Positions 40,890 through 43,749 of a stretch of 43,749 bases of DNA are shown here, piece by piece. Source of the DNA: Chloroflexota bacterium (lineage in GTDB: Bacteria > Chloroflexota > Limnocylindria > Limnocylindrales > CSP1-4); contig PMIE01000038.1 of the NCBI GenBank assembly GCA_003156975.1, forward strand, positions 1 through 43,749, written 5' to 3'. Numbering within the stretch: the first letter of the stretch is position 1; every line of letters starts with the position of its first letter. The notes beneath the pieces are model-generated. The model was not told the DNA's origin and did no database searches. It saw only the letters and a program-made list of their open reading frames with translations. A program made the position numbers and the translations under genes.

Positions 40890-41753
40890 ATGACGGAAGC
40901 ATCTGGCTACAAGGCCGAGTTGATCGGCGTCTTCGGGCACCCGGTTGCCGAGAATCCGACGGTCGTCATGTATGAGGCCGCATTCGCGGAGCTGGGGCTC
41001 AACTGGCGCTATCTCACGATCGAGGTTCTCCCCGAGGATCTGGAGGCCGCGATGAGGGGCCTGCGGGCCTTCAACATGCGCGGCATCAACTTGACCATCC
41101 CGCACAAGGTGGCGGTGCTGCCGTACCTCGACGAAGTGAAGCCGGCAGCCGCCTTGATGGGCGCGGTGAACACCGTTGTTCGCGTCGGCGACCGACTGGT
41201 CGGCGAGAATACGGACGGAAGGGGCTTCATGACCGCGCTGACCAGGGACGCCAGGGTCGATCCGGCGGGAAAGCGCGTAGTAGTGCTGGGTGCCGGCGGT
41301 GCCGCCAGGTCGATCACCGTGGAGCTTGCACTTGCGGGCGCGCAGCGGATCACGATCGTCAACCGCTCACCCGAGCGCGGCCTAGGGCTGGTGGAGCTGC
41401 TCAACGCCAAGACGCCCGCGAAAGCCGAGTTGGCTCCGTGGCCCGGTCGGTATGCCGTTCCCGAGGGCACGGAGATCCTGGTCAACGCAACATCCATCGG
41501 CCTCTTCCCCAATGTCCACGACAAGCCGGACATCGACTACGAGACGATCACCGACGGCATGGTTGTCTGCGACGTGATCCACACGCCGACCACGCCCTTC
41601 CTCGCGGAGGCCGAGCAGCGCGGCGCGCAGACTCTCGATGGCCTGGGGATGCTCGTCTACCAGGGAGCCATCGGCTTCAAGCTCTGGACCGGCCTCGACG
41701 CGCCGGTGAAGGTCATGTACGACGCCCTGGCCCAGGCTTTCGGGCTGGGCTGA
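40890..41753 (+). CDS. Shikimate dehydrogenase family protein (AroE-like)
   Basis: A 287-residue NAD(P)-dependent dehydrogenase that would reduce 3-dehydroshikimate to shikimate. The catalytic Lys73 in NLTIPHK and Asp109 in ENTDGRGF are present, as are the nucleotide-binding GAGGAAR (134-140), NRSPERG, and the C-terminal GLGMLVYQGAIGFKLWTG. The substrate loop differs from canonical AroE: where E. coli has a Ser (14) and another Ser (16) in 'AHSKSP', this protein has AENPTV, giving Asn and Thr. This suggests altered substrate preference, as in quinate/shikimate or aminoshikimate dehydrogenase relatives. The Trp-controlled trpE follows 1 kb later, fitting an aromatic pathway, with rbsD between. 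The Shine-Dalgarno is weak (AGAGAGAG). Confidence 0.85.
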   Translation: MTEASGYKAELIGVFGHPVAENPTVVMYEAAFAELGLNWRYLTIEVLPEDLEAAMRGLRAFNMRGINLTIPHKVAVLPYLDEVKPAAALMGAVNTVVRVGDRLVGENTDGRGFMTALTRDARVDPAGKRVVVLGAGGAARSITVELALAGAQRITIVNRSPERGLGLVELLNAKTPAKAELAPWPGRYAVPEGTEILVNATSIGLFPNVHDKPDIDYETITDGMVVCDVIHTPTTPFLAEAEQRGAQTLDGLGMLVYQGAIGFKLWTGLDAPVKVMYDALAQAFGLG

Positions 41754-41819
41754 CGGCGGCTCGGTGGCCCTTTCAATCGCTCGAACCCATCCACTATTTG
41801 CGACAACGGAGAGATGATC

Positions 41820-42221
41820 ATGCGAAAGAACGGCATTCTGAACCAGGACATCCTCGCGGCCACCGGAGGGCTCGGCCACGGAGACTACCTCGTGGTTTCC
41901 GACGCCGGGCTGCCGCTCCCGCTCGAAGTCGACCGCATAGACCTGACGGTGGTGAAGAACCTGCCGCGGTTCATCGATGTGCTGAAGCCGATTCTCGCGG
42001 AGATCATCGTCGAGAAGATCATCCTGGCCACGGAGATCCAGAAGGCCAGCCCTGAACTAACTGCGCAGATCCGCGAATTGGCAGGGTCGATCCCGATCGA
42101 GTTCATCAGCCATGAGCAGTTCAAGGCCCTGACCCACGACGCCAAGGCGATCGTCCGCACCGGCGAGCACACGCCCTACTCGAACGTCATCCTTCAGTCC
42201 GGCGTCGATTTCAGCAAGTAG
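41820..42221 (+). CDS. rbsD: D-ribose pyranase (RbsD/FucU family)
   Basis: A 133-residue mutarotase interconverting pyranose forms of ribose (or fucose). Family landmarks are GILNQDILAATGGLGHGDYL with the catalytic His, VSDAGLPLP, DRIDLTVV, EFISHEQFKALTHDAKA, and the C-terminal RTGEHTPYSNVILQSGV. The ATG at 41820 is chosen because GGAGAG (41808-41813) is six bases upstream; the ATG at 41814 would overlap that site. No ribose ABC transporter or kinase is adjacent. It follows the AroE-like gene after 66 bases on the same strand. Confidence 0.92.
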   Translation: MRKNGILNQDILAATGGLGHGDYLVVSDAGLPLPLEVDRIDLTVVKNLPRFIDVLKPILAEIIVEKIILATEIQKASPELTAQIRELAGSIPIEFISHEQFKALTHDAKAIVRTGEHTPYSNVILQSGVDFSK

Positions 42222-42236
42222 GTCCGGGCCCTCAGC

Positions 42237-42293
42237 GGCCGGGGAGAGACGACGGGTCTCGTTTCGGAGTCCCATTCCAATCTCTCCGGCCGG
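42237..42293. repeat. Imperfect inverted repeat after rbsD
   Basis: CGGCCGGGGAGAGA (42237-42250) can pair with TCTCTCCGGCCG (42282-42293) with a two-base bulge. It may end the rbsD transcript before the trp promoter. No T-run follows. Confidence 0.4.
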
Positions 42294-42371
42294 TGTTCGA
42301 TCGTATCGAGTCCTACCTCGATGGCCGGGGCCGTCGGCGCGTCCGCGCCAGATGGGCCTGATCGCGGGGAT

Positions 42372-42401
42372 TTGACACTCGCCCCTGTTCGCCCGTAGAC
42401 T
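42372..42401 (+). promoter_or_regulatory. Promoter of the trp leader
   Basis: TTGACA (42372-42377), 18-base spacer, TAGACT (42396-42401). The predicted start is near 42408, giving a leader of about 405 bases ahead of trpE. Confidence 0.8.
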
Positions 42402-42414
42402 CCCGCCACATTAC

Positions 42415-42720
42415 GAATACGGGCTGTGATCGGGACGAGTACTTCCCGGCGCCGGCGTAGAGAACCAGCGGTTGGTGCAAGCTGGTGCGGTGACGAGAAC
42501 GAATGGCCCCGTGAGCCTCCGGACCAAACCGCGAGCTTCCAGGGCTCGCCAGTAGGCTCCGGCGCAGAGCGCCAGCGATAAAGGGCAGCACCGATCGGCG
42601 GGAGTAGCGCGGAAGCGCAAGAGCCCGACCTGTCGGCCAAAGTGCGGCATTGCCGAATGTGGGTGGCACCGCGGAAGGATCAGACCTTTCGTCCCAAAGA
42701 CGAAGGGTTTTGTGATTCTT
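42415..42720 (+). promoter_or_regulatory. T-box riboswitch, tRNA-Trp specific
   Basis: Uncharged tRNA-Trp should bind this leader and prevent termination. Stem I is recognisable by GGGACGAGTAC near 42432 (the AGUA/K-turn side), the distal CAGCGGTTGGTGCAAGCTGG arm (42467-42486), and the specifier region GAACGAATGGCC, with TGG (Trp codon) at 42504-42506. The T-box core GGGTGGCACCGCGG lies at 42661-42674, with the bulge TGGC at 42664-42667. TGGC can pair with a GCCA acceptor end, which fits the G discriminator of tRNA-Trp. An intrinsic terminator follows at once (42684-42712). The downstream gene, trpE, agrees with the specifier. The exact folding of the middle (stems II/III) is not worked out. 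Confidence 0.85.
42684..42712 (+). terminator. T-box terminator 1
   Basis: ACCTTTCGTC pairs with GACGAAGGGT (10 bp, one G-T) around CCAAA, followed by TTTTG. TCGTCCC on its 5' side is the usual partner of the T-box GGG in the competing antiterminator. Confidence 0.85.
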
Positions 42721-42721
42721 A

Positions 42722-42791
42722 GCGGGGTAACCGCCCCGAACAGACCTTTCGTCCGTGGACGAGAGGTTTTTTGTTACCCCGCGACGCGGGG
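42722..42791 (+). terminator. Second terminator unit, a degenerate copy of the T-box expression platform
   Basis: A second hairpin, ACCTTTCGTC/GACGAGAGGT (42744-42767), is followed by a six-T run. Its 5' arm and preceding CAG are identical to terminator 1. Upstream, GGGGTAACCGCCCCGAA resembles the T-box core but lacks the TGG that binds the tRNA end. The unit is enclosed by a perfect 10-bp inverted repeat, GCGGGGTAAC (42722-42731) and GTTACCCCGC (42773-42782). The right arm of that repeat can instead form CCCCGC-GAC-GCGGGG (42777-42791) just before the trpE ribosome-binding site. Confidence 0.75.
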
Positions 42792-42813
42792 TGATCCAGA
42801 AAGGCGAACCGCA

Positions 42814-43749
42814 ATGGCACTCAAGGATCCGCTAAGTCTTCGCGAGGTGAAGCAGATGTCGGGCGCGGCCGACACGATCCTGCTGACCGCGACTCGCAAC
42901 GCCGACCTCGAGACGCCGATCGGGGCGTTCATGCGCTTCGACGATGGCGGCCCGGCCTTCCTGCTCGAATCCGTCGAAGGCGGCGAGCGGCTCGGCCGGT
43001 ACTCGTTCCTCGGAGTGGGGCCGCGACGCCTGCTGACGTACCGGCCTGGCCAGGCCACGATCCAGACGCGGCCCGTCGGCGTGGCGGAGTTCAGCCCCGA
43101 CCTGCCGACAGAGACTTTCGACGCTCCGGATCCGCTGGTGGCTCTGCGCCGGTTCATGCCGAAGCGGCGCATCCTGCCCTCGACGGAGATCCCGCGCTTC
43201 CCGGGCGGAGCGGTCGGCGCGCTGGCGTACGACGCCGTCTCGACCTTCGAGCCGACAGTTCCACTTCCTGCGAAAGACCCGATCGGCGTGCCGATGGCCG
43301 CCTTCCAGGAGACGGACCTGGTTCTGGTTTTCGATCATCTGACACACACCCTTTCGGCCGTCGCCGCGCTTCACACCGAAGCACCGGACCTCGACGGCCG
43401 ATACGCCATCGCCGAGCGCGCCATCTTCGAGGCCCTGGAGCGAACCGGCCGGCCGACGGAAATCGAGCTGGCGGGACTGACCAGGCGGAGCCGCGCCGGA
43501 TCGGCCGATGGCCAGGCAGAACCGACGCAGCCGCTCGGCTTGGAGCCGATCGAAGTCAGCATGAGCCGGGCCAGGTACGAGGCCGAGGTCCGCAACGCCA
43601 AGGAGAACATCGCTGCCGGCGAGGCGATCCAGATCGTCGTGGCTCGCCGCCAGACGTTCGAGCGCCCGGTGATCGGCGGCGAGAAGCTCGACGCGGTTTC
43701 GCTGTACCGATCGCTGCGCCGCGTGAACCCGAGCCCGTATCTCTTCTTC
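42814..43749 (+). CDS. trpE: Anthranilate synthase component I, N-terminal part (runs off the window)
   Basis: It converts chorismate and glutamine (with TrpG) to anthranilate, the first step of tryptophan synthesis. The visible 312 residues cover the N-terminal Trp-binding domain and the beginning of the chorismate-binding domain. The feedback motif LLESVEGGERLGRYSFLG is intact, so allosteric inhibition by tryptophan is expected. IEVSMSRARYEAEVRNAKE, then AAGEAIQIVVARR and NPSPYLFF, open the catalytic domain. ATG 42814 has the Shine-Dalgarno AGAAAGG nine bases upstream. It is controlled by the tRNA-Trp T-box leader. The frame is open to the last base, so the C-terminal third lies beyond the window. 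Confidence 0.95.
   Translation, partial: MALKDPLSLREVKQMSGAADTILLTATRNADLETPIGAFMRFDDGGPAFLLESVEGGERLGRYSFLGVGPRRLLTYRPGQATIQTRPVGVAEFSPDLPTETFDAPDPLVALRRFMPKRRILPSTEIPRFPGGAVGALAYDAVSTFEPTVPLPAKDPIGVPMAAFQETDLVLVFDHLTHTLSAVAALHTEAPDLDGRYAIAERAIFEALERTGRPTEIELAGLTRRSRAGSADGQAEPTQPLGLEPIEVSMSRARYEAEVRNAKENIAAGEAIQIVVARRQTFERPVIGGEKLDAVSLYRSLRRVNPSPYLFF

Follow-up and report, generated by a model that had tools for sequence, protein, structure and literature searches.

The window analysed here is a stretch of 43,749 nucleotides from a Chloroflexota genome (2,775,010 bases in 153 contigs, 84.71% complete), and the leader that concerns us lies close to its end, ahead of trpE. Homologues of this trpE are found in 17 of the 20 other genomes of the genus, and 22 trpE relatives are from Chloroflexi, many of them from fens. 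Judged by eye, the reading frames 3′ of trpE look like trpG, trpD and further trp genes, and the upstream frames at 40890-41753 and 41814-42221 resemble shikimate dehydrogenase (aroE) and an RbsD-like protein, respectively. The leader probably has its own promoter, the only promoter-like match that a consensus scan returned in 42200-42900, which would place the transcription start at about 42408. The features referred to below are as follows.

42372..42401, plus strand: probable sigma-70-type leader promoter, TTGACA, 18 nt, TAGACT (consensus scan)
42417..42699, plus strand: T-box riboswitch, Stem I to antiterminator (RF00230, 81 bits, E 2e-17)
42504..42506, plus strand: specifier codon UGG (Trp) within GAA-UGG-C of the specifier loop (Rfam alignment and sequence)
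42661..42696, plus strand: antiterminator AT1, with the bulge UGGC at 42664-42667 (Rfam alignment; fold -13.0 kcal/mol)
42684..42711, plus strand: terminator T1, four U and then broken, UUUUGUG (fold -15.8 kcal/mol, terminator scan)
42699..42708, plus strand: 3′ arm of T1, proposed relay strand against the 5′ arm of T2 (complementarity)
42722..42782, plus strand: perfect 10-bp inverted repeat around T2, arms 42722-42731 and 42773-42782 (repeat search)
42723..42738, plus strand: hairpin H1, CGGGG/CCCCG, between T1 and T2, in the proposed relay loop (folding)
42742..42772, plus strand: terminator T2, a copy of T1 ending in six U, 42767-42772 (T1 arms directly repeated, fold, scan)
42773..42795, plus strand: hairpin adjoining the ribosome-binding site (42770-42813 fold, -18.0)
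42799..42805, plus strand: likely trpE Shine-Dalgarno, AGAAAGG (read from the sequence)
42814..43749, plus strand: trpE, running past the window end (homologues in the genus)

The T-box sensor and the second terminator

The initial annotation had described a complete tRNA-Trp T-box with its terminator, and this is borne out by the Rfam covariance-model search that it had suggested, in which 42417-42699 aligns to model positions 1-219 of RF00230; at E ≤ 0.001 the genome has no other T-box match. The specifier UGG agrees with the regulated amino acid, trpE lying downstream, and since the genome's own tRNA-Trp has the anticodon CCA and, with a discriminator G followed by CCA, the 3′ end GCCA, the contacts at specifier and bulge both fit. 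The score of 81 bits falls below the Rfam gathering score of 93, which is a curation threshold rather than a biological property: of 151 Chloroflexota genomes, 140 have a match at E ≤ 0.001 and only 89 have one over the cut-off. T-boxes are very common in this phylum, with up to 15 per genome among the matches listed. AT1 and T1 (arms 42684-42693 and 42699-42708) both fold and share 42684-42696, and are thus predicted to be mutually exclusive; the 5′ arm of T1 is conserved among the relatives. Just past T1, GATTC (42714-42718) is present in 70 of 89 family leaders and may lengthen the terminator base by pairing with an upstream GGATC.

Behind this single T-box lies, as also annotated, a further terminator platform that has no tRNA site. 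A terminator scan of 42200-42900 gave three sites (shuffle mean 0.6), the plus-strand pair being T1 and T2, and T2 repeats T1 on both sides: 42738-42754 and 42678-42694 are identical at 16 of 17 bases, which confirms the shared 5′ arm of the initial description, its six-T run lies at 42767-42772, and the 3′ side recurs at 81% over 16 bases. With arms at 42744-42754 and 42757-42767, T2 has the more stable fold of the two (-17.9 vs -15.8 kcal/mol). The hexamer CAGACC precedes the arm in both units and, among the 17 other genus leaders, in L011 only, so the second unit was probably copied within its own lineage. Furthermore, the loop side and 3′ arm of T2, GTGGACGAGAGG, also occur in the single terminator of three relatives (L006, L007 and L036), which suggests that T2 retained the relatives' sequence and that the 3′ arm of T1 changed. 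As the two copies differ in several bases, a simple repeat error in assembly is disfavoured. On its sequence, the leader is a T-box followed by a copied terminator without a sensor, seen in one genome.

A T-box-like stretch before T2, thought at first to have lost its TGG, could not be upheld. When this stretch was aligned locally to the T-box strand, 48% of 2000 shuffles scored equally or better; with the alignment anchored at the shared CAGACC, 3179 of 5000 shuffles reached the same score; and the post-terminator DNA of the single-unit genus members shown outscored unit 2, a control that takes its highest score among many positions. In 42700-42830, Rfam returned no T-box up to E 10, the leader thus having a single RF00230 match and no second Stem I with a specifier, and no strand before T2 was T-box-like beyond chance, as a second antiterminator with a T-box bulge would be. 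Since its T-box likeness is no better than that of shuffled sequence, we treat unit 2 as a terminator only. Two weak Rfam matches to a PyrR site (26.6 and 19.5 bits, against a gathering score of 54) are treated as chance, and control by TRAP was set aside, with no TrpBP match at E ≤ 0.001 in this 84.71% complete genome.

The 10-bp repeat enclosing unit 2, the remaining part of the early description, is real and perfect, and moderately unusual, in that such a repeat occurs in 11 of 2000 dinucleotide shuffles and in 6 of 416 same-length stretches of the window (the whole window, including 42722-42782). In folding, however, it is mostly transient. In the model that holds the upstream strands, the predicted 10-bp stem is confined to nascent ends near 42782-42788 and later yields to two local hairpins. 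One is H1, whose pairing probability is 0.85-0.99 at all computed nascent lengths outside 42782-42788; the other is 42773-42795, whose core pairs stand at 0.99-1.00 from nascent end 42791 onward. A fold of 42640-42813, on the other hand, retains the stem through long-range pairs. The alternative pairing of the right arm beside the ribosome-binding site was recovered as an 8-bp inverted repeat (42776-42783/42785-42792) that adjoins the site within the hairpin 42773-42795; the Shine-Dalgarno is unpaired in the 42770-42813 fold. These predicted folds make no good case for the inverted repeat as the main control.

Relatives and other double-platform leaders

The initial annotation had let its reading depend on the second unit being present in relatives; those examined, in genus and family, lack it, and conservation thus gives function no support. 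A second copy of the arm (ten bases, one mismatch allowed) is present in one of 89 distinct family T-box leaders, that of the window alone, and hence in one of the 18 genus leaders; each of the other 17, from the 17 of 20 genomes with a trpE match, has one terminator arm. These 89 leaders, the window included, come from 88 of 107 family genomes and are what remained of 109 core matches once nine contributed by the phylum pattern, and 11 in which no terminator arm lay near the core, had been removed. A trpE-like DLETP motif lies downstream in 84 of them and is absent in five, of which L117 and L135 end soon and L129, L136 and L145 are unclear; the distance from arm to motif is 56-193 bases in the 70 leaders mapped. 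By a terminator rule, 63 of the 89 have a single terminator and 25 have none, the window being the only one with two, but the rule is insensitive, missing many T1, and weak second terminators may escape it. The exact double-arm pattern occurs in one of 107 family genomes and a looser form in nine of 400 phylum genomes; among the other eight loci with the looser form, six have at most one terminator by the rule and two (L090, L091) are by eye unlike T-boxes. One genus leader, L014, has a different hairpin, ACCGACCCAGAGGTCGGTTTAG, between T1 and the trpE start, just before the Shine-Dalgarno, which is possibly an unrelated second weak terminator.

In the phylum at large, we surveyed 110 T-box loci outside the family, the best-scoring among the matches listed. 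A new core was obtained from 95, a repeat of a known core from eight and none from seven, and on the 99 distinct cores the rule gave no terminator in 23, one in 72 and two in four. Two double-terminator candidates (L242 and L256) were rejected as chance-like by eye, as was an extra core in L198, which lies on the other strand and by eye is no T-box. In three surveyed leaders, L176, L258 and L210, the first T-box core is closely followed by another core with its terminator; L210 was missed by the terminator rule and found on recount. L176, at 1702-1850, has cores 89 nt apart, two terminators and GGGTGGTACC twice; it precedes a reading frame that looks like ilvD, and its specifier resembles CTC (Leu) by eye. 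L258, on the reverse strand, and L210 have cores 156 and 188 nt apart, respectively, and both belong to genome G263. The core GGGTGGTACC is kept in unit 2 of all three and not in the window.

The proposed hand-off and its rivals

The antiterminator of a usual T-box uses the 5′ arm of the terminator, and what becomes of the 3′ arm seldom attracts attention. Here, the 3′ arm of T1 (42699-42708) is complementary to 42744-42753 in the 5′ arm of T2 at ten of ten positions, one of them G-U, with a duplex energy of -18.0 kcal/mol when slightly longer strands are folded, and T2 may thus answer to the same tRNA event by way of T1. The second platform had been described as a fixed or differently controlled checkpoint, which stands as one option but overlooked this complementarity. 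We propose that one Trp-sensing T-box may drive two serial terminators by a strand hand-off, or relay, and we judge this the likeliest mechanism, with a probability a little under one half (about 0.46), its main rivals being a fixed damper and a neutral copy. With charged tRNA-Trp, T1 would fold and stop the polymerase; in transcripts that leak past it, the 5′ arm of T2 would be free, since the 3′ arm of T1 would be locked in T1, and T2 would stop the polymerase too. Uncharged tRNA-Trp, on the other hand, would stabilize the antiterminator on the 5′ arm of T1 and leave the 3′ arm free, which would capture the 5′ arm of T2 on its emergence and before the 3′ arm of T2 is made, so that T2 would be passed. 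The outcome would be a lower basal expression together with a steeper response from one sensor. The order and persistence of the relay helix in this scheme we infer from folding. That a copied terminator inherits regulation without a copied sensor, one tRNA-binding event opening both terminators in cascade, we put forward more tentatively.

Folding of the nascent leader is consistent with the capture step. With the antiterminator assumed to be held, the relay has a probability of 0.96-0.98 at exposed ends 42752-42764, and it lies at 0.82-0.98 across four parameter sets, at both 37 and 20 °C, for ends 42752, 42758 and 42764; the relay is displaced in the equilibrium model by end 42767. With T1 assumed to be formed, T2 has a probability of 0.91 at 42764, counted over those of its pairs that can already form. 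If the polymerase covers about 14 nt, the exposed end at the T2 decision would lie near 42758, inside the relay range. The antiterminator strand was also considered as a partner reaching the 5′ arm of T2 and was rejected, its duplex there being -11.7 against -14.1 with its own target and -18.0 for the relay.

When T2 has been transcribed in full, it is favoured over the relay at equilibrium (-30.7 vs -25.9 kcal/mol), and the relay model therefore needs a kinetic trap. With Turner 2004 at 37 °C and at ends 42767-42772, where all ten pairs are available, the relay must cross 9.1-9.8 kcal/mol to reach T2, which gives relay lifetimes of 13-40 s; the antiterminator without tRNA would pass to T1 over 5.4-8.0 kcal/mol in 0.03-2 s, and these lifetimes rest on an assumed prefactor of 2e5 per s. 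The smallest barrier en route, 7.6 kcal/mol for a two-pair nucleus at 42759, corresponds to about 1 s. At 37 °C, Turner 1999 shortens the lifetime to 0.2-2 s and Andronescu 2007 to 0.04-0.1 s, and Langdon 2018 puts it at about 50 s for the full length; at 20 °C it is longer with every parameter set. The path searches yield upper limits of the barriers, so that the real lifetimes could be shorter. That the relay forms is predicted robustly; its predicted persistence varies from 0.04 s to tens of seconds with the energy set.

The complementarity is in itself no evidence of selection, because any copied terminator has it at birth. Among 85 leaders with a recognisable 3′ arm, the duplex of this arm with the downstream leader ranks third in the window (-16.9, median -8.6), and the two leaders with a stronger duplex are GC-rich, one having its site in an apparent trpE coding part. 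In the surveyed double-platform leaders, the equivalent pairing has a probability of 0.75-0.90 at all lengths computed in L176 (0.86-0.90 when the 5′ arm of T2 has just emerged) and of 0.79 in L258 until the 3′ arm of T2 itself emerges, whereas in L210 it stays at 0.00-0.07 at all lengths computed, the linker binding the arm instead. A general hand-off thus has mixed support; the arms of these leaders share CGTCCC by descent anyway and, as the T-box core is kept there, unit 2 of L176 and L258 is controllable another way.

Somewhat unlikely, in our view, is that T2 serves as a plain second terminator, independent of tRNA, and thus as a fixed damper that lowers trp expression in both states. Its greater stability and six U are in keeping with such a role, as are the preference for T2 at equilibrium even with the antiterminator holding the 5′ arm of T1 and the short relay lifetime with one energy set; by prediction, however, its 5′ arm has already been taken up by the time its 3′ arm emerges, and a strong terminator that always acts on the trp genes would be costly. 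We give still less weight to a recent tandem copy, neutral or slightly harmful and without selected function in this one lineage, in which T2 would be leaky or due for future loss. The presence of a second arm copy in only one of the 89 family and 18 genus leaders argues for this, as do the large variation in post-arm leader length and the near-restriction of CAGACC to the two units (1 of 17 other genus leaders), as expected if the copy is recent. The linkers, on the other hand, have diverged, yet the 5′ arms remain identical at 16 of 17 bases and the 3′ arms pair fully, which suggests that both hairpins are maintained.

It is very improbable that the inverted repeat and T2 form a long stem in read-through mRNA, acting in RNA processing, stability or translation rather than in termination. 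The perfection of the repeat, the hairpin next to the Shine-Dalgarno and the stem kept in the 42640-42813 fold would suit such an element, but once the upstream strands are held the stem is limited to a few nascent ends before the two local hairpins replace it, and the Shine-Dalgarno itself is left unpaired. More improbable still is a degenerate T-box platform in unit 2 that senses another signal, or the same tRNA weakly: GGGT..AACCGC in unit 2 does resemble GGGTGGCACCGC, but at shuffle level in both tests, and with no T-box or other convincing Rfam match we rejected this candidate.

Known systems and meaning

In its sensor, the leader agrees with the RF00230 transcriptional Trp T-box, with UGG in Stem I, the UGGC bulge, an antiterminator set against a terminator and a place before trpE; it differs in the added second terminator copy and in scoring below the gathering cut-off. 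Excerpts of PMC2494555 report a trpE T-box in Dehalococcoides, another Chloroflexi group, and these, with excerpts of PMC12452182, describe Bacillota trp operons with tandems of two or three complete T-boxes. As far as these excerpts go, such tandems likewise put two or more terminators under Trp control before trpE, whereas the window has one sensor and a unit 2 without Stem I, specifier or bulge. Partially tandem T-boxes, whose "modes of action remain unknown" according to a portion of PMC7583486, also place another expression platform shortly after the first one. L176 and L258 are likely of this kind and L210 perhaps, and these keep the GGGTGGTACC core in unit 2, whereas the window has a terminator only. 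Tandem riboswitches and logic gates, in the sections consulted of the review PMC9481103, share the serial terminators in one leader but rely on separate aptamers, none in those sections having one aptamer with two arm-linked terminators. Within the partial coverage of the literature searched, we met no case of two arm-linked terminators under one T-box.

The window leader is a very simple case, with one sensor, two terminators and no second tRNA site. If the hand-off fails, the trp genes would lie behind a constitutive second terminator, which would be odd in another way. If it works, serial terminators would answer to one signal, and the duplication of about 60 bases would sharpen the switch. 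The same mechanism, if true, could explain the working of some leaders that combine a single Stem I with two platforms, and would provide a one-step evolutionary route to a tighter switch.
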